NCBI GenBank assembly: GCA_963169355.1
Contig: CAUJCR010000001.1
Span: forward strand, 1-64,000
Length of the DNA stretch: 64,000 bases
Direction of reading: 5' to 3'
Source of the DNA: Bacteroidota bacterium
GTDB lineage: Bacteria; Bacteroidota; Bacteroidia; B-17B0; Aurantibacillaceae
Shown here: positions 29,309 through 51,051 of the stretch, piece by piece
Position numbering within the stretch: position 1 is the first letter of the stretch
Layout of the letters: every line of letters begins with the position of its first letter
Program-made: the position numbers and the translations under genes
Notes under the pieces: model-generated
The model's database searches: none
What the model was told of the DNA's origin: nothing
What the model saw: only the letters and a program-made list of their open reading frames with translations

Positions 29309-32032
29309 ATGTCAAAAATTAAAGTCGGAATTTTTTTTGGTGGTCGTTCAAAAGAGCGTGAAATATCGTTTGCAGGCGGAAGAACAGTTTATGATAATTT
29401 AAACAAATCTATTTTTGAAGCCATTCCAATCTTTGTTGATTCATTTGGTAATTTTGTATTGCTTGATTGGAATTATGTGTATAAAGGCACCATTCGCGAT
29501 TTTTATCCTCCAGTACAATTTATACCATCCGAAAATACCGATTTTCAGTACTACGCCGAAAACTTAGGCGATTTATCCATACAACAACAAGACGAATTAA
29601 TTGCTCAAATTGGAAAAAAAATAGAAACGAATCAATTAGCTTCGTTAATGGATTTTGCCTTTTTAGCCTTACATGGTCCTTATGGCGAGGATGGTAGAAT
29701 ACAAGGCTTGTTGGAGTATCTTCAAATTCCTTATTCTGGCAGTGGTATTTTACCAAGCGCTATTGGCATTGATAAAAGCGTACAAAAAAAATGGATGATA
29801 AATGCCGGTTTCAATAGCCCTGCTTATTTTACCATTGATAGAATCGATTGGATACAAGGTCGGTTAAACCAATCTTTCGAAAAAGCAAAAAAAGAAATTG
29901 GTTTCCCAATGGTTATTAAACCAGCTAATCAAGGCTCTTCAATAGGTGTAACCATTTTAAATGAGGATAAATCAACCTTATTTATGGAGGCTATAGAAAA
30001 AGCATTATTTACTAAGTGGCTTGATTTAAAGGCTTGGAAAGCATTATCAAAACACGAACAAACGGAAATGATGCGCTCATTATCTGATATTCGGGAGGGA
30101 ATTGGTATGCCTATCAAAATTAATCTTGCCAATTCTTCTACAAAATCAGTTGGGGCAGATGAAAAAGTATTTTATAACCAATATGAATTAATTCATTTTT
30201 TAAATCAACCACATAACGATATAGACGGATTTGTGTTAGAGGCACTTGATGGTGAAAGCACTGTTATTATTGAAGGGTTTATTGAAGGAAAAGAATTTTC
30301 ATGTATTGTATTAGAAGACACTGATAACAACGGAACTGTGATTGCATTGCCTCCTACCGAAATTAGAAAAGGTAAAGAGTTGTTTGATTATCGTAGTAAA
30401 TATTTACCAGGTTTATCTCGTAAAATTACTCCTATTGAAGAAAGTGATGCGCAAATAAATGCCATAAGAAAAGAGTGTGAGCGTTTATTTACAGAACTAC
30501 ACTTTGATGTTTATGCACGCATCGATGGTTTTTTAAGTAAAGATGGAAAAGTATTTTTAAATGATCCAAATACCACATCGGGTATGATGCCTAGTTCATT
30601 CTTCTTTCATCAAGCTGCCGAAATAGGATTAACACCTTCTCAGTTTTTAACCTACATTATTCGCACATCGTTAAGTAAACGCATTAAAAATAGCAAAGGT
30701 GCATTTGTGTACGAACGTGTACTTAAAGCATTAGATAACTTTTTATTAAACGAAAAAAATAAAGAGGCTAACAAAATTCCTGTAGCAGTTGTATTAGGAG
30801 GTTATTCATCTGAGCGACATATTTCGGTTGAGAGTGGTAGAAATATTTTTGAAAAACTAAACTCATCTGAAAAATACGAGCCTATTCCTGTTTTTTTAAC
30901 TGGTAGTTCTAATAAGCACGAACTTTATCAAATTCCTATTAACGTATTATTAAAAGATAATGCAGATGATATAAAGGAAAAAATATACCATTGGAAAATT
31001 CATCCGGTGGTATCTCAAATAATTACCGAATGTAAAACCATTACCCAAAAATATGGTTCCGAAAATAATTTAATGGCGCCAAAATCTTTAAGCTATGCCG
31101 ATTTATCAAAATTAGTGAAACAAGTATTTATTGCTTTACATGGTCGTCCAGGCGAAGATGGCGCTATACAAGAACAATTAGATAAGGTAGGTTTAACCTA
31201 TAATGGCTCTGGAAAAGATAGCTCGTCTATTACCATTGATAAATATCGCACCAACGAAATTTTAATGCAACATGGTTTTTTAGCAGCTAAGCACGCTCTA
31301 ATAAGTATGGATGATTGGAAAGGAAATAAAGATAACATTAAGCAACAATTGCAAAACGAATTTCACTATCCATTAATTGCTAAACCAGTAGATGATGGAT
31401 GCAGTAGTGCCGTAAAAAAAATAAAATCGTTTGAAGAGTTTGAAGCCTTTGCAACATTAATTTTTAGAGAGGAAGAAACACTCGATGCAAAGTCGGCTGA
31501 GTTTTTACACATTAAACCCAAAGAAGAATTCCCTCAAAAACAAGTCATCTTAGTAGAGGAACTTATTAGTAAAAATAATGCGCAGCATTTTTTAGAAATA
31601 ACGGGCGGAATGCTTACCAAGTTTAATAAACAAGGGGAAATAGAGTACGAAGTATTTGAGGCTTCAGAGGCATTAGCCGAAGGAGATGTATTGAGTTTAG
31701 AAGAAAAATTTTTGGCAGGGCAAGGGCAAAATATTACACCAGCACGCTATGCACGTAATGAAAATGATAGACAACAAATTTCTGATAAAGTAAAAGAAAC
31801 CTTGGGTGCTGCGGCTAAAGTTTTAAATATAGTAGGCTATTGTCGTATTGATGCCTTTGTAAGAATTTACGCAAACAACAAAGTAGAAGTAATTTTTATT
31901 GAAGTAAACTCATTACCAGGTATGACACCAGCAACTTGTATCTACCATCAAGCAGCCATTAATGGTTATAAGCCATACCAGTTTATAGACCAAATTTTAG
32001 ATTTTGGAGCCAAAAAAGCCTTAGTACATTAA
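29309..32032 (+). CDS. Tandem fusion of two D-alanine-D-alanine ligase modules
   Basis: A 907-residue protein with two ATP-grasp Ddl modules, so about twice the normal Ddl length. Module 1 (~1-470): GGRSKEREISFAGG, SGSGILPSAIGIDKSVQKK, FPMVIKPANQGSSIGVTI, RIDGF and FLNDPNTTSGM (Asp419-Pro-Asn421, where Ddl usually has Glu-x-Asn). It has an insertion of about 70 residues around 230-300. Module 2 (~490-907): GGYSSERHISVESG, NGSGKDSSSITIDKYRT, FIEVNSLPGMTP (Glu865-Val-Asn867, canonical). Ddl joins two D-Ala for peptidoglycan. One module may be catalytic and the other regulatory or have different specificity. Cytoplasmic. Not the common single ddl of cell-wall clusters. Confidence 0.9.
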   Translation: MSKIKVGIFFGGRSKEREISFAGGRTVYDNLNKSIFEAIPIFVDSFGNFVLLDWNYVYKGTIRDFYPPVQFIPSENTDFQYYAENLGDLSIQQQDELIAQIGKKIETNQLASLMDFAFLALHGPYGEDGRIQGLLEYLQIPYSGSGILPSAIGIDKSVQKKWMINAGFNSPAYFTIDRIDWIQGRLNQSFEKAKKEIGFPMVIKPANQGSSIGVTILNEDKSTLFMEAIEKALFTKWLDLKAWKALSKHEQTEMMRSLSDIREGIGMPIKINLANSSTKSVGADEKVFYNQYELIHFLNQPHNDIDGFVLEALDGESTVIIEGFIEGKEFSCIVLEDTDNNGTVIALPPTEIRKGKELFDYRSKYLPGLSRKITPIEESDAQINAIRKECERLFTELHFDVYARIDGFLSKDGKVFLNDPNTTSGMMPSSFFFHQAAEIGLTPSQFLTYIIRTSLSKRIKNSKGAFVYERVLKALDNFLLNEKNKEANKIPVAVVLGGYSSERHISVESGRNIFEKLNSSEKYEPIPVFLTGSSNKHELYQIPINVLLKDNADDIKEKIYHWKIHPVVSQIITECKTITQKYGSENNLMAPKSLSYADLSKLVKQVFIALHGRPGEDGAIQEQLDKVGLTYNGSGKDSSSITIDKYRTNEILMQHGFLAAKHALISMDDWKGNKDNIKQQLQNEFHYPLIAKPVDDGCSSAVKKIKSFEEFEAFATLIFREEETLDAKSAEFLHIKPKEEFPQKQVILVEELISKNNAQHFLEITGGMLTKFNKQGEIEYEVFEASEALAEGDVLSLEEKFLAGQGQNITPARYARNENDRQQISDKVKETLGAAAKVLNIVGYCRIDAFVRIYANNKVEVIFIEVNSLPGMTPATCIYHQAAINGYKPYQFIDQILDFGAKKALVH

Positions 32033-32285: not shown

Positions 32286-32723
32286 ATGTTTGAGATTTTA
32301 AAAAGCTTTGAAACAAAGTATGGTTCTCTCAAAAAGAAAGGTTTGAGAATCGAAGGTTTATCTATGATAGACCCAAAGCGTAAAAAACATGTCATTATGA
32401 TTTCTAAGCCTTTCTTATTTGATAACAGACAGTTACCAAAAACATACGAAGGATTAGATATTAAATCTAAAATTGAAGGTACTTTACCTGAAGAGTTTAA
32501 GATTGAAAAATCGGCTGTAAAAAAAGATTATTTATGGGCACCAAGTAAGTTTGAAAAATTTGTTGATCGTTGTGCTGATGATATTAAGAAACAATTTGGT
32601 AATCCAAATATGTCTCGTGCCGAAATGCTAGATGCTTTAGCATTTGGTAGTTTTGAAGATCACAAGAAAAAAACTTTAAACCTAATTAAAGAAGGAAAAA
32701 TTCCTGCTATTAATCTCAATTAA
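32286..32723 (+). CDS. Conserved-looking 145-residue protein of unknown function
   Basis: I do not recognise the family. It is a soluble, Lys-rich protein (RIEGLSMIDPKRKKHVIM, PKTYEGLDIKSKIEGTLP, WAPSKFEKFVDRCADDIKKQ, MSRAEMLDALAFGSFEDHKKK) without signal peptide or membrane segment. The unit is isolated, with its own -7 element upstream and a strong terminator downstream. The codon pattern looks like its neighbours. Confidence 0.7.
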   Translation: MFEILKSFETKYGSLKKKGLRIEGLSMIDPKRKKHVIMISKPFLFDNRQLPKTYEGLDIKSKIEGTLPEEFKIEKSAVKKDYLWAPSKFEKFVDRCADDIKKQFGNPNMSRAEMLDALAFGSFEDHKKKTLNLIKEGKIPAINLN

Positions 32724-44938: not shown

Positions 44939-44979
44939 TTAATCCATCTCATTATTCATCATTGTTATCAAATTGTATT

Positions 44980-47900
44980 ATGCGAAAAATTTATTTAAGC
45001 CTTTTATTACTTTGTACAGTTAGTCAGCTTTTTTCTCAAGGCGAAAATTGCTCGGCTGCAACCTTAATTAGTAATGGTTCTTGTGTAACAGGCTCTGCTG
45101 GACTTACACAAAACATTCCTGGTTGTGTAGGAACAGCCGATGATGATGTTTGGTACAGATTTGTGGCAACAAGTACAAGCCATTCAGTTACGGTTACTGG
45201 TTCAGCTGGTTTTGACGCTGTTTTACAAGTTTTTTCTGGGCCTTGTTCGGCTTTAGTCTCTATGGCCTGTGTAGATAATTCTTTATCTGGACAGTCGGAG
45301 TCGACTGTTGTTTCAGGATTAACAATTGGTAACACCTATTATATTAGAACCTATCATTATTACACAGGTTCTGGATCATCCACCTTTACACTATGTTTAA
45401 ATACGCCACCTCCTCCTCCATCAAACAATAATTGTGCGAGTGCTATAAATTTAACTGTCAACTCGGGTTGTGTTCAAACAAGCGGTACTACATTAGGAGC
45501 CACCACTCAAACTCAATTCCCAATTTGTGCAGGTACACCCAATGATGATGTGTGGTACACCTTTACAGCTACAAATTATACACAAACCATTCAGGTAACA
45601 GGATCTACCAATATGGACGCTGTCATTCAATTATTTTCAGGTTCATGTGGTTCATTTACTCAATTAAGTTGTACTGATAATACATTTTCAGGAGGTGTTG
45701 AATCGGTTACTGCCAGTGGTTTAACACCAGGGGTTCAATATTTTTTCAGAGTGTATGATTATTATTCAGACCCAGGAGCAACCTTTAGTGTATGTGTATC
45801 TGGAAATAGTATTATACCTGGTTCTCAGCCAAATGACGACCCATGTTCGGCTATACAATTACCTCCAGTAACTTCAGACTGTAATTATCAGATGTTTTCA
45901 AATATTGGTGCAACAACTACATCTTCAACACTTGCACCTAACCCAACAGGATGCACTGGCGGTACTGGTGGATTTACTGGCACTAGCAAAGATGTATGGT
46001 TTGCCATCACAGTTCCAGCTAGTGGCAATTTATGTATTACGCCCATGCCAAATTACACAACGGCTCCTGCAGTAACGGATGGTGTAATGGCTCTATATAG
46101 TGGCTCTTGTGGAAGTTTAACTCAAATTGCTTGCTCAGATGATGCGGATGGAATTCCTTATAATTATCCAGGAACAGCGAATGATTTTTTACCTTATTTG
46201 AATGTAACAGGATTAACAGCTGGTTCAACCGTTTATTTAAGATATTGGGGCTGGGGTTCTCAAGCAGGAAACTTTGGAATATGTGTTCAAGCTCCCACAA
46301 ATGACTCATGTTACAAAGCCTTATATATATGTGACTTAAATGGTTATGCGGCTTCTACAAGCCCAGCATACACGCCTGATAGACCAGGAACAGGAGCAGG
46401 ACAAATGTATGGAAATAACGAAACTCCAGCTGGCGTGGATCAACCAAATGGTACAAATACAGGTGGTATTTTTGGGTATTATCCTCCAAGTAATATACCT
46501 GGTCCTTTTTCATCTCCAGCCATAGATGTGAATATTGATAATAACTCATGGATTAGATTTACAGCGGCTACACCTACCGTTTCATTAAGGGTAAACGTTT
46601 ATAATTGTTGGGAAAATGGACCTACTAATCAAGGTGTACAAATGCAAATTTTTAGTGGAACAAATTGTTCGAGTTTCACCCCTGTATCATCCTTTAGAGA
46701 AGGCATTGGTACTTATACCGTTACTACTGCTGTTCCACTCATAGTAGGTAATGATTATTATTTGATGGTAGATGGTTGGGGAGGAAACATTTGTAATTAC
46801 AGTATTCAAGCCTTATCAGGTGTTGCATTTCCTGATATTACAGCTACTCCAACGAATATTTGTGCCGGACAATCAGCAACTTTAACGGCACCTTCTGGTG
46901 CTACAAGTTATACTTGGGCACCAACTGGTGAAACAACTCAATCCATCGTTGTAAGCCCAGGCACTACGATGACTTATTCATGTATCGTAACAGGTGTATG
47001 TGGTTATAAGCAAACCTTAACCAAAACAATAACCATGTTACCTTCGCCCTCAGTAACTATTAACGGAGGCGCCGCTATTACTACTTGTGGTACGAATACA
47101 ATAACCCTAACAGGAAGCGGTGCATCAACTTATACTTGGAGTACTGGAAACACAACATCTTCATTTACAGTTGCACCCTCAGGAAGTACCAGTTACTCGG
47201 TGATTGGCACAGCAGCGAATGGTTGTACAAGTACAGCTGTTACTAATGTTACTGTCAATCCAGTTCCTAACATTCTGCCAGCGGGTACAAACACTATATG
47301 TAATGGAGCATCTACCAATCTTACCGTGAGTGGAGCTAATACATACACTTGGTCGCCTGCTGCATCATTAAGCCCCTCCACAGGAACAAATGTAGTAGCT
47401 ACACCAACCACAGGAACTAATTATACCATAACTGGAACGGCTACTAATGGTTGTACGAATACAGCTACTTATTCCGTAACCGTCAATCCTAGACCTAACG
47501 TTTCAACAACTGCTACAAGCACATTAATTTGTAGTGGAGGCTCCGTAACATTACAAGGAACAGGCGCTAATTCTTATACATGGACAGGTGGTATTACAGA
47601 TGGCGTTGCTTTTACGCCTACGGTTACTACTACTTATACAGTAACAGGAACTAATGCCGCAACAGGATGTACCAATACCGCCGTAAGAACAATTTCTGTA
47701 AATACTACACCAACAGTATCTTCTACGGCTAGTAATTCTGTCATTTGTAATGGACAATCGGTTACTTTAAATGGAACGGGTGCTAATACTTACACATGGA
47801 CAGGAGGTGTTACGAATGGTGTTGCTTTTACACCAACTACAACCAATACATATACAGTTACTGGAACAGCCACTAATGGCTGTACAAATACAGCAGTTGT

Positions 47901-50900
47901 AACTATTACCGTTAATCCAAAGCCAACTGTTTCTTCAACAGCAACTAACTCAGTCATTTGTAATGGACAATCCGTTACTTTAAATGGAACAGGTGCTAAT
48001 ACTTATTCATGGACAGGAGGCATTATTAATGGTGTTGCATTTACACCAAGCAGCACAACAACTTATACAGTTATAGGTACAGATGCTGTTACTGGCTGTA
48101 CAAATACTGCTGTAAGAACAATAACCGTAAATAGTTTACCATCTACAATAGCGAGTACTTCGGGCTCTATTACTTGTGCCACTAATACCATTAACCTCAA
48201 CTCGAGCACTTCTGGTTTATCATACACTTGGACTGCACCTAGTGGAAGCTCAATTACTGGCGGAACAGCCAATAACCAAAATGCAATTGGACAAGGGGCA
48301 GGTACCTACACGTTAGTAGTGATGAATGCTTCTAACTGTACTTATTCAACTACCTTATCAGCCAATGTTAATACTACAGTACCAACCGCATCTGCCACTA
48401 ATGGCACATTAACTTGTGCTGTAACATCTACGGTTTTAGTTGGCGGACCAACTAGTGGTGTAACTTATAACTGGAGCGGACCAGGCATTTTAGGCCCTAA
48501 TACTACTGCAAATATCACTGTAACAGTTACAGGGAATTATTCTTTAGTTACAACAAGTACCTTAACAGGTTGCTCAAGTACAGTAACAGCCATTGGAACT
48601 GTTACAAATAACTTAACAACACCTACTGTAAGCGCAGGTTCAAACCAAACAATAACCTGTGCTGCACCAACCGTTACGCTAACAGGAAATGCTACCTCAG
48701 GCTCTAGTTATAACTGGAGTAATGGTGCAACCACATCTACAACATCAGTAGGTGGTTCGGGTATTTATACATTAACGGCTACTAATCCTGTAACGGGTTG
48801 CTCTTCGTCGGCTACCGTGCAGGTAATTCCAAGTGCTGGTACACCAACAGGAACTTTGTCGGCTGTTACTAATTCTATTACTTGTGCCAATACAACGGTG
48901 TCGGTTGGTATTACATCAACTACAACACCAATTTCCATTTTATGGGCAGGGCCTGGCATTGTAGGCGCTACAAACACCCCTACAATAAACGTTAATCAAG
49001 GAGGAACTTATACGGTAACACTTACCAATACTTCAAATAGTTGCTCAGCACCTTATACCATTGTTGTTCCATCTAATACTACGCCAGTAGTAGCAAGTGC
49101 TAGTATTTCACCATCTTCAAGTATTACTTGTAGTACGCAAAGTATAACCTTAAGTGCTAGCCCAACTGGTGCTAATTATGCTTATGCATGGTCGGGCGCA
49201 GGCATTGTTTCGGGAGGAACAACAGCTAACCCAGTGGTAAATGCTGGAGGAAATTATACCGTTACAATTACCAATACAATAACTGGTTGTAGTGGGGCAA
49301 CTGGAACAACACAAGTATTTGTGCCAACTAATACCACAACACCAAACTTAAATTTAAGTGCTAATTCTGTTACTACAACTTGCTCTAATCCATCAGCCGT
49401 AGTTACAGCAACTAGTAGCTCTGGTACCAATACCACTTATACTTGGACAGCGCCAAGCACTGGTAATTTAAGTAATCCCAATGTTTCAAATCCTAGCTTA
49501 GGTGGTAGTGGTGTATTTACGGTAGTGGCTACCAATACTATTAATGGTTGTGTATCTGCTCAAGCTACTGTAAATGTAGTACCTGATAATAACATTCCAA
49601 CTTATACCTTATCAGCTAATGCTGCATCAATTACTTGTTCTACCACTACACCAAGCGTTACTATTTCAACCAATGTTTCGGGAGCAACTTTCTCATGGAC
49701 ACCAAACCCAGCTAGTGGTGGTAATACAGCTACGCCAACATTTACAGCGCCTGGTAATTATACCTGTGTTATTACAAATACAGTAAATAACTGTTCAACT
49801 AATTCACCAATGGTAAGTATTAATACAAATACTACTAGCCCTATGGTTACTATTGCGCCATCTTCTTCTATTACATGCGCTAACACCACTGTCAATATCA
49901 CTTCTACGGTAAGCGCTTCTTCTGCAACTTATACTTGGTCGGGTGCTGGAATTACAGGTGCAAATAATAACGCAACGGCTAACGCTAATAGTGGTGGAAT
50001 TTATACACTTAATGTTACCGATTTATCTAATGGATGCGTTGGCACAGCTACCACAACAGTAAATACCAACACTACTGCTCCAACTTTAACGGTTTCATCT
50101 ACTAATACATTAATTAGTTGTGGCGCTAGTTCTGCTACTTTAAATGCGGTTTCATCTATTACCGATACACCAGTGTGGTTTGGTACAACTTCTTCTACCT
50201 TAGCTGTTACAAGTGCTGGAGATTACGTTGCCACCGTTGTAGATGCTATAACAGGTTGTTCTGCATCGCAAACAATTACAATAACTAGTAGTATTAATCC
50301 GCCAGATGCCAATGCTGGTGCCGCAGTGGTTATGCCTTGTGCCTCGCCAACTGTTGCCCTATTAGGAAGTAGTACAACTACCGATGTTGTAACTTACAAT
50401 TGGAATGGACCAACTATTATTTCGGGAGCTAACACTTCAAATCCAGTAGTTGGGGCAGTTGGTATTTATACCTTAACTGTTACAAATACAGCAAATGGAT
50501 GTAGCGCCACAGCTACAGTAGATGTATCGCAAAGTAATGTGATAGCTAATTTTTATGCTGATCCTATGTTTGGCGAAGCACCATTAACCGTTAATTTAAC
50601 TGATTCGAGTACAAATGCAACCACTTTTAGTTGGGATTTTGGTAATGGCTTAACCTCAACTCAACAAAATCCAAGCACCTTATATCCTGATGGTGGCACA
50701 TACACGATTACTTTAGTGGCTAGTTCTGGACCATGTTCGGATACAGCTACCAAAGTGATTACAGTAGAAGATGGATTTGTAATTGAAGTGCCTAATGTGT
50801 TTACGCCTAATGGTGATGGTGTGAACGAAGCATTTCACATAAAAATGAAAGGAGTGAAATCGGCTGAGGGTACAATTTATAATCGTTGGGGACAAATTTT

Positions 50901-51051
50901 ATATAGTTGGGACGCACTAAATACATCTTGGGATGGAAAAGCAGCAAATGGCGAAATATGTCCAGATGCTAATTATTATTACATCATTAAAGTAACTGAT
51001 AAAAAAGACAAAGAACATTTAGTTCCTGGCTATGTTTTAATTATTAGGTAA
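44980..51051 (+). CDS. Giant multi-Ig-domain T9SS type B adhesin
   Basis: I place the start at ATG 44980, where the signal peptide (RKIYLSLLLLCTVSQLFSQ) begins cleanly; TTG at 44962 adds six residues. The ~2,023-residue product has three related cysteine-containing beta modules (DDDVWYRF, NDDVWYTF, KDVWFAI, each with VLQVFSGPC-type strands), a fourth diverged one (~440-620), then 16 Ig-like modules of about 70-90 residues starting near residue 625. A PKD domain (FYADPMFGEAPLTVNLTDSS, FSWDFGNGLT) follows, then a type B sorting domain (VPNVFTPNGDGVNEAFHI, IYNRWGQILY, SWDGKAANGE). Likely a surface adhesin or filament. Modules 5 and 6 are almost identical. Confidence 0.92.
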   Translation: MRKIYLSLLLLCTVSQLFSQGENCSAATLISNGSCVTGSAGLTQNIPGCVGTADDDVWYRFVATSTSHSVTVTGSAGFDAVLQVFSGPCSALVSMACVDNSLSGQSESTVVSGLTIGNTYYIRTYHYYTGSGSSTFTLCLNTPPPPPSNNNCASAINLTVNSGCVQTSGTTLGATTQTQFPICAGTPNDDVWYTFTATNYTQTIQVTGSTNMDAVIQLFSGSCGSFTQLSCTDNTFSGGVESVTASGLTPGVQYFFRVYDYYSDPGATFSVCVSGNSIIPGSQPNDDPCSAIQLPPVTSDCNYQMFSNIGATTTSSTLAPNPTGCTGGTGGFTGTSKDVWFAITVPASGNLCITPMPNYTTAPAVTDGVMALYSGSCGSLTQIACSDDADGIPYNYPGTANDFLPYLNVTGLTAGSTVYLRYWGWGSQAGNFGICVQAPTNDSCYKALYICDLNGYAASTSPAYTPDRPGTGAGQMYGNNETPAGVDQPNGTNTGGIFGYYPPSNIPGPFSSPAIDVNIDNNSWIRFTAATPTVSLRVNVYNCWENGPTNQGVQMQIFSGTNCSSFTPVSSFREGIGTYTVTTAVPLIVGNDYYLMVDGWGGNICNYSIQALSGVAFPDITATPTNICAGQSATLTAPSGATSYTWAPTGETTQSIVVSPGTTMTYSCIVTGVCGYKQTLTKTITMLPSPSVTINGGAAITTCGTNTITLTGSGASTYTWSTGNTTSSFTVAPSGSTSYSVIGTAANGCTSTAVTNVTVNPVPNILPAGTNTICNGASTNLTVSGANTYTWSPAASLSPSTGTNVVATPTTGTNYTITGTATNGCTNTATYSVTVNPRPNVSTTATSTLICSGGSVTLQGTGANSYTWTGGITDGVAFTPTVTTTYTVTGTNAATGCTNTAVRTISVNTTPTVSSTASNSVICNGQSVTLNGTGANTYTWTGGVTNGVAFTPTTTNTYTVTGTATNGCTNTAVVTITVNPKPTVSSTATNSVICNGQSVTLNGTGANTYSWTGGIINGVAFTPSSTTTYTVIGTDAVTGCTNTAVRTITVNSLPSTIASTSGSITCATNTINLNSSTSGLSYTWTAPSGSSITGGTANNQNAIGQGAGTYTLVVMNASNCTYSTTLSANVNTTVPTASATNGTLTCAVTSTVLVGGPTSGVTYNWSGPGILGPNTTANITVTVTGNYSLVTTSTLTGCSSTVTAIGTVTNNLTTPTVSAGSNQTITCAAPTVTLTGNATSGSSYNWSNGATTSTTSVGGSGIYTLTATNPVTGCSSSATVQVIPSAGTPTGTLSAVTNSITCANTTVSVGITSTTTPISILWAGPGIVGATNTPTINVNQGGTYTVTLTNTSNSCSAPYTIVVPSNTTPVVASASISPSSSITCSTQSITLSASPTGANYAYAWSGAGIVSGGTTANPVVNAGGNYTVTITNTITGCSGATGTTQVFVPTNTTTPNLNLSANSVTTTCSNPSAVVTATSSSGTNTTYTWTAPSTGNLSNPNVSNPSLGGSGVFTVVATNTINGCVSAQATVNVVPDNNIPTYTLSANAASITCSTTTPSVTISTNVSGATFSWTPNPASGGNTATPTFTAPGNYTCVITNTVNNCSTNSPMVSINTNTTSPMVTIAPSSSITCANTTVNITSTVSASSATYTWSGAGITGANNNATANANSGGIYTLNVTDLSNGCVGTATTTVNTNTTAPTLTVSSTNTLISCGASSATLNAVSSITDTPVWFGTTSSTLAVTSAGDYVATVVDAITGCSASQTITITSSINPPDANAGAAVVMPCASPTVALLGSSTTTDVVTYNWNGPTIISGANTSNPVVGAVGIYTLTVTNTANGCSATATVDVSQSNVIANFYADPMFGEAPLTVNLTDSSTNATTFSWDFGNGLTSTQQNPSTLYPDGGTYTITLVASSGPCSDTATKVITVEDGFVIEVPNVFTPNGDGVNEAFHIKMKGVKSAEGTIYNRWGQILYSWDALNTSWDGKAANGEICPDANYYYIIKVTDKKDKEHLVPGYVLIIR
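47709..48134 (+). repeat. Recent tandem duplication of adhesin Ig modules
   Basis: Two ~212-bp segments (47709-47920 and 47921-48134) are near-identical: both contain TCATTTGTAATGGACAATC and the coding of NGQSVTLNGTGANTY. The flanking modules are more diverged, indicating recent duplication or conversion. Confidence 0.8.

Follow-up and report, generated by a model that had tools for sequence, protein, structure and literature searches.

A tandem D-alanine–D-alanine ligase with two asymmetric active sites in Bacteroidia

Introduction

The D-alanine–D-alanine ligase (Ddl), which links two D-alanines for the cell wall, is essential, is a target of D-cycloserine and is usually described as a single-module homodimer. 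The catalytic triad of Escherichia coli DdlB is Glu15-Ser150-Tyr216, and its metal ligands are D257, E270 and N272. In D-Ala:D-Lac ligases His is found, besides Phe, at the Tyr216 position, and a VanX-type dipeptidase is the companion of Van operons. Carbamoyl-phosphate synthetase has a tandem ATP-grasp subunit, CarB, whose duplicated modules have different roles.

In lactic acid bacteria, Phe versus Tyr at the Tyr216 position decides between depsipeptide and dipeptide activity, according to the part of PMC5996685 that deals with this residue. Two Ddl units in one chain, as in the protein described here, are known from land plants: according to a passage of PMC9954125, the DDL of Arabidopsis and Physcomitrella consists of two putative DDL enzymes fused together. 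Moss Ddl is reported, in a section of PMC9434261, to be closest to Fibrobacteres-Chlorobi-Bacteroidetes homologues. Land-plant DDL, unlike the bacterial tandem, is eukaryotic and belongs to plastid peptidoglycan synthesis; the likeness considered here is the two-unit layout. Hirano et al. 2016 is reportedly the source given for the fusion in plants. Among the open-licence papers listed, none on a bacterial tandem Ddl was found.

The gene described here lies on contig CAUJCR010000001.1 of a Bacteroidota bacterium (GCA_963169355.1), within a 64,000-nucleotide stretch hereafter called the window, and its product is named P0001. E. coli DdlB and DdlA (PF01820 + PF07478) share the fold and nearly all catalytic residues with both modules of the tandem, but known enzymes of this kind are single-module; module 1 of the tandem has Asp for E270, and module 2 has Cys, Phe and Thr for S150, Y216 and S281. 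The D-Ala:D-Lac ligases LmDdl2 (Leuconostoc) and VanA are also single-module, unlike the tandem. LmDdl2 matches the fold of module 2, and its F261, as given in the same part of PMC5996685, is shared with F801 of that module. CarB resembles the tandem in carrying two ATP-grasp modules in one chain, but its reaction and substrates differ, and no sign of channelling was seen in the tandem. In the MurC-Ddl fusion (NF011171) a Ddl is likewise part of a larger cell-wall protein, but the partner is MurC and not a second Ddl; P0001 scored 175.9 against this model (cut-off 1015).

Results

Two Ddl modules in one protein

The P0001 reading frame starts with ATG and encodes 907 aa without an internal stop (Table 1). 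Pfam placed two Dala_Dala_lig_N stretches in the protein and Dala_Dala_lig_C stretches in both halves (window positions 29801-30004, 30212-30661, 31268-31477 and 31523-31999), with whole-protein E-values of 5.7e-48 and 1.5e-55. The frame and the domains in both halves bear out the preliminary description, which had proposed two full Ddl modules in one chain. P0001 also passed two NCBIfam D-alanine–D-alanine ligase subfamily models (359.8 vs 243 bits and 357 vs 245.65), with scores that add up over two modules and are flattering to a tandem.

Over 304 columns aligned to DdlB, identity was 29% for module 1 and 27% for module 2. The insert in module 1, earlier put at about 70 residues, is present but comprises 80 residues in this alignment, where it follows DdlB residue 172; module 2 has 22 residues at the same place. 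Of the eight segments compared, this insert varied most, with a mean entropy of 2.17 bits. The N-domains of both modules contained an additional insert of about 60 residues.

Table 1. Features of the tandem ligase gene (window positions).
Feature	Position	Strand	Basis or remark
Tandem D-alanine–D-alanine ligase (P0001)	29309..32032	+	907 aa, including stop codon
Module 1, full Ddl fold, residues 1-483	29309..30757	+	Pfam, alignment, structure match
80-residue insert in module 1 ATP-grasp half, residues 235-314	30011..30250	+	Alignment
Asp419-Pro420-Asn421, module 1 metal site	30563..30571	+	At DdlB E270/N272 positions
Linking helix between modules, residues 465-488	30701..30772	+	Predicted structure
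Module 2, full Ddl fold, residues 487-907	30767..32029	+	Pfam, structure match
Cys698, for DdlB Ser150	31400..31402	+	Cys in 128/128
Phe801, for DdlB Tyr216	31709..31711	+	Phe in 128/128
Glu865-Val866-Asn867, canonical module 2 metal site	31901..31909	+	Alignment
Thr876, for DdlB Ser281	31934..31936	+	Thr in 128/128

Structure prediction, suggested in the preliminary description as a check, was run with AlphaFold2 on P0001 together with 56 tandems. The model (pLDDT 88.9, pTM 0.89) predicts a defined arrangement of the modules, with a full Ddl fold in each. Fifty structural matches were listed, of which 43 aligned to module 1 and seven to module 2. The best match of module 1 was DdlA (3i12_A; Z 39.6, rmsd 2.8, 338 aligned, residues 2-466). 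Module 2 matched LmDdl2 (1ehi_A; Z 37.9, rmsd 2.6, 339 aligned, residues 489-907), VanA (1e4e_B; Z 37.5, rmsd 2.2, 320 aligned), an ancient VanA (3se7; Z 37.1), Pseudomonas aeruginosa DdlA (three entries, two of them at Z 37.5 and 37.2) and Burkholderia pseudomallei Ddl, at Z values so close that they amount to ties.

Directly downstream of the tandem, a 145-aa protein is encoded at window positions 32286-32723. It had no Pfam match at E 0.01 and was kept at position +1 in 4/60 tandem loci.

Catalytic residues

Conservation was read from an alignment of 128 tandems, of which thinning at 90% identity left 114 and in which pairwise identity went down to 37%, and positions were mapped to E. coli DdlB (from NC_000913) using 28 tandems and 42 single Ddls. 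The residues invariant in 128/128 sequences of module 1 were E16, S210, K364, Y365, R404, D406, D419, N421 and S430. Within module 1 the Glu-Ser-Tyr triad is intact (E16, S210, Y365). At its metal positions D406 and N421 are kept, and Asp419 replaces E270 throughout, a conservative change.

The residues invariant in 128/128 sequences of module 2 were E502, C698, K800, F801, R846, D848, E865, N867 and T876. All metal ligands are kept here (D848, E865, N867); of the triad, E502 is kept, but C698 replaces Ser150 and F801 replaces Tyr216 in every sequence, leaving the triad incomplete. Equivalents of K97, K144, E180, E187, K215, R255, D257, E270 and N272 were kept in 28/28 module 2 rows. The Cys, Phe and Thr changes at S150, Y216 and S281 occurred in 0/42 of the single Ddls aligned.

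The two halves therefore carry complementary, fixed sites: module 1 has the triad and an altered metal Glu, and module 2 has the metal site and an altered acceptor site. Both metal motifs named in the preliminary description, Asp419-Pro-Asn421 in module 1 and Glu865/Asn867 in module 2, align with DdlB E270/N272 as claimed. By the aligned residues, it is in module 2 that the acceptor site is altered; the Cys, Phe and Thr changes had been overlooked in that description.

Whole modules were about equally conserved, with a mean entropy of 1.33 bits for module 1 and 1.24 bits for module 2. At 17 site positions named beforehand, the means were 0.016 and 0.014 bits, respectively. Among the tandem genes dS was near or above 1, too high for a dN/dS ratio. 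A conserved Cys698-Cys877 disulfide was considered and is unlikely, because Cys877 is Ala or Val in 10/128 sequences.

Occurrence among Bacteroidia

The class census covered 396 Bacteroidia genomes at least 95% complete. Tandem-type genomes, defined by a P0001 match at E 3.5e-87 or better, numbered 161 (about two-fifths); 232 genomes had a single Ddl, with matches reaching 9.5e-27 at best, and three had neither. In the phylum sample (n = 296), the tandem was found in 0/223 genomes of other classes, 222 of which had some P0001 match (best E 2.1e-31). One single-type Ddl match from outside the class (G527:C55:57143-57490) lay in a 944-aa open frame, perhaps another fusion. In a set of 60 genomes, the own one and 59 relatives, 46 carried the tandem, whole or in pieces, and 11 a single Ddl; three had no match.

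Seventy-two families contained a match: 36 tandem only, 31 single only, and five with both kinds of carrier (f42, f51, f57, f58 and f60). The mixed families imply that tandem and single Ddl have been swapped, in one direction or the other. An assembly artefact or an oddity of one genome was rejected, as the tandem is full length in many families; nor is it a chance arrangement, because full-length homologues in many families reach down to 37% pairwise identity. Cultured carriers include Pontibacter ramchanderi (L118).

Ddl N-domain matches numbered two in 154 tandem-type genomes, one in six, and three in one, the own genome. Among the matches listed, a common frame for the pair could be read for part of these genomes. 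Five of the six genomes with one match carry truncated forms. Beyond the tandem, no Ddl N-domain match was found in the other 160 tandem-type census genomes. Six single-type genomes had two N-domain matches (G055, G093, G221, G233, G251 and G370), and in G055 both fell within one 308-aa frame. A PF07478 search returned the fused gene as best match in 10/10 tandem or truncated genomes. Among the matches listed, those outside the fused gene ended at or before profile position 185 of 204 and were taken, by frame length, for other ATP-grasp enzymes.

In a quick maximum-likelihood tree (102 rows, midpoint-rooted, branches long), module 1 grouped with the truncated forms (99) and the module 2 sequences grouped with each other (100). 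These two clades were neighbours (SH-aLRT 95), apart from 43 singles that included DdlB and the single Ddl of contig C52 described below. One duplication-fusion within Bacteroidia would explain this tree.

Shortened relatives and a further single Ddl

Truncated tandem proteins of about 550-630 aa were found in two families: f65, with 36-39% identity to P0001 in four genomes, and f75, with 40% in a single genome (628 aa). In the three that were read out (L156, L158 and L160), every named module 1 residue was kept, followed by a remnant of the module 2 N-domain that has neither the GGxSSERHIS nor the HGRPGEDG motif; the second ATP-grasp half is missing as well. Each of the five genomes had one Ddl N-domain match. 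The truncated gene gave the top PF07478 match in G266 (a single contig), G314 and G424, where other matches ended earlier in the profile. The model of the f75 protein reached pLDDT 88.7 and pTM 0.91, module 2 remnant included.

In f65 and f75 no Ddl was found other than one without the module 2 catalytic half, so the Asp-Pro-Asn site of module 1 is very probably active. These families keep the module 1 site and lose that of module 2, so module 1 is very probably enough for the essential reaction. The preliminary description had allowed that one half might regulate the other; that module 1 is the odd or the regulatory half is doubtful, given a triad kept in 128/128 sequences and an only Ddl of module 1 type in f65 and f75. 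A similar 623-aa protein, on a 602-kb Bernardetia plasmid (L243), is already annotated as D-alanine–D-alanine ligase in the record; the metal site of this truncated relative is Asp-Ile-Asn.

The own assembly also contained an intact 328-aa single Ddl (G000:C52:32-1015, locus L039) on a contig of 6089 bases, making it the only tandem-type genome of the census with a further single Ddl. The gene adjoins, as judged by eye, sigma-factor-like and TPR/CHAT-like proteins. The tetranucleotide distance of C52 from the window was 0.248, and 52 same-length window pieces, chosen to leave out the repetitive gene at 44962-51051, reached at most 0.181. By the same measure, five of seven congener loci lay at 0.108-0.167 and the others at 0.267 and 0.585. 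The repetitive gene is a 2029-aa ORF, and pieces reaching into it had the largest composition distances. The G+C content of C52 equals that of the window. A DNA search of 19 congeners with C52 gave one 48-base match and nothing else, five first-look candidates being scored per genome. Among 247 class genomes, relatives of the C52 Ddl had 46-50% identity in the ten best rows.

The contig looks foreign and is probably a binning contaminant or a recent gain; if its Ddl is genuine, the own organism is an exception to the tandem-or-single rule. The preliminary description had held that a separate normal ddl, together with a dispensable tandem gene, would count against its proposal. A separate single Ddl does exist in the assembly, but on a probably foreign contig, and the tandem gene is very unlikely to be dispensable, because the other 160 tandem-type genomes had no further Ddl N-domain match.

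Gene context

Sixty distinct tandem loci were compared (57 full and three truncated, from 62 with two duplicates). A PASTA-domain membrane protein was encoded downstream of the tandem in 31/60 loci, at +1 in 30; a Ham1/RdgB-like protein upstream in 17/60; and an RluD-like protein further downstream in 11/60. At least one of four recurring neighbours, with domains identified from single examples, was found at 38/60 loci. Among 20 single-Ddl loci (17 of the class), a PASTA gene lay beside ddl in seven. In L213, L214 and L217 a single ddl was located inside the rdgB-PASTA interval on the opposite strand; elsewhere the tandem fills this interval. The tandem is thus often placed in the usual ddl locus, the rdgB-PASTA-rluD stretch where other class members have a single ddl. 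In the window itself, this context was not found around the tandem. In genome G323 the tandem was fused in frame to the PASTA protein (L151:1459-5052, 1197 aa).

A single alanine racemase was found in the own genome, as a fusion with a Mur ligase (L244:846-3308) that we take, by precedent, to be MurF. With this fusion present, D-Ala supply and dipeptide use look normal. No VanX-family (PF01427) match was found in the own genome, which is 97% complete. VanX-family peptidases were rarer with the tandem, in 23 of 90-94 tandem genomes versus 56/105 single genomes; this comparison is approximate (197 genomes, 195 or 199 after matching), the genomes are not independent in relatedness, and PF01427 is broad. 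All 79 genomes with a PF01427 match were listed, and 20 of those without. A resistance-type D-Ala-D-Lac system was rejected as a likely explanation, given the absence of PF01427 from the own genome and its lower frequency in tandem genomes.

Discussion

The preferred reading, with a probability of about 60%, is that the tandem is the main D-Ala:D-Ala ligase, a fused and asymmetric version of the Ddl homodimer derived from one duplication-fusion, in which module 1 makes D-Ala-D-Ala and module 2 is a retuned live site. The tandem is very probably the main Ddl of its carriers, because a further single Ddl was found only in the own genome, on a foreign-looking contig. The half that does the work is probably module 1: with its Glu-Ser-Tyr triad and Asp-x-Asn metal site, it would make D-Ala-D-Ala for MurF. 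Module 2 would be its dimer partner, packed against it; the ATP-dependent site of module 2 would still be live but retuned, in the acceptor it takes or in its speed, and the essential reaction would not depend on it. The Phe in place of Tyr216 favours a changed acceptor, and the invariant ATP and metal residues disfavour a dead domain. Loss of module 2 in f65 and f75, together with the absent VanX link, disfavours a general role in resistance. The role of module 2 is not a general one: f65 and f75 have lost its catalytic half, and tandem and single carriers occur side by side in five families.

For module 2, a live site that has been retuned and a silent partner with a regulatory role are about equally likely; two equal ligases are less so. 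It is possible, though doubtful, that module 2 is a second ligase with a different acceptor, such as D-lactate, D-serine or some other D-residue, and that the tandem has two products; different D-Ala-D-X products had been raised in the preliminary description. Its Phe at the Tyr216 position, fixed in 128/128, is the dipeptide/depsipeptide switch described for lactic acid bacteria in that part of PMC5996685. The ATP and metal ligands are kept, and the D-Ala:D-Lac ligases 1ehi and 1e4e and the ancient VanA 3se7 align to this module. However, so do the ordinary Ddl entries 8evw, 8evx, 8evv and 5nrh, whereas the D-Ala:D-Ser ligase VanG (4fu0) aligns to module 1. P0001 as a whole protein scored 192.7 against the D_ala_D_lac model (NF000206), far below the cut-off of 550, and both the rarity of VanX-family peptidases in tandem genomes and the absence of the module 2 catalytic half from f65 and f75 speak against a second product. 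Equally tentative is the view of module 2 as a partner without catalysis of its own, which would bind either nucleotide or D-Ala and have a regulating or stabilising effect on module 1. Of its triad, Ser and Tyr are both gone, and f75 keeps a confidently folded module 2 N-domain without active-site motifs, as if the contact surface outweighed catalysis. Silent sites usually lose some ATP or metal residues, but nine ATP, metal and Arg255-type positions are kept in 28/28 module 2 rows.

It is unlikely that both halves make D-Ala-D-Ala and that the fusion just fixes the dimer. Both sites are strongly conserved, and E. coli DdlB Y216F was crystallised with ADP and phosphoryl phosphinate (1iow, by its title), which indicates that the Phe does not prevent binding; the three acceptor-site changes, fixed in all tandems and seen in none of the 42 single Ddls, stand against it. 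The widest reading is more improbable still: it makes module 2 a separate, second ligase by which many Bacteroidia would make a further D-Ala-D-X or couple two ATP sites as carbamoyl-phosphate synthetase does, and it derives the two-module DDL of plant plastids from the bacterial fusion. It is hardly credible that the C52 Ddl is the real enzyme and that the cell could dispense with the tandem gene. The C52 gene is intact and has the G+C of the window, but none of the other 160 tandem-type genomes has a further Ddl, its contig lies beyond all 52 window pieces in tetranucleotide distance, and its only trace in the 19 congeners, at five scored candidates per genome, was one 48-base match.

On the preferred reading of a fused main ligase, a class-wide lineage would use an asymmetric pair in place of the single-module Ddl homodimer. 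The truncated forms and single-Ddl relatives are ready natural controls. For the plant DDL, whose two-module form is unexplained, the tandem offers a tractable model in bacteria, and it is a clean case of active sites diverging after duplication.
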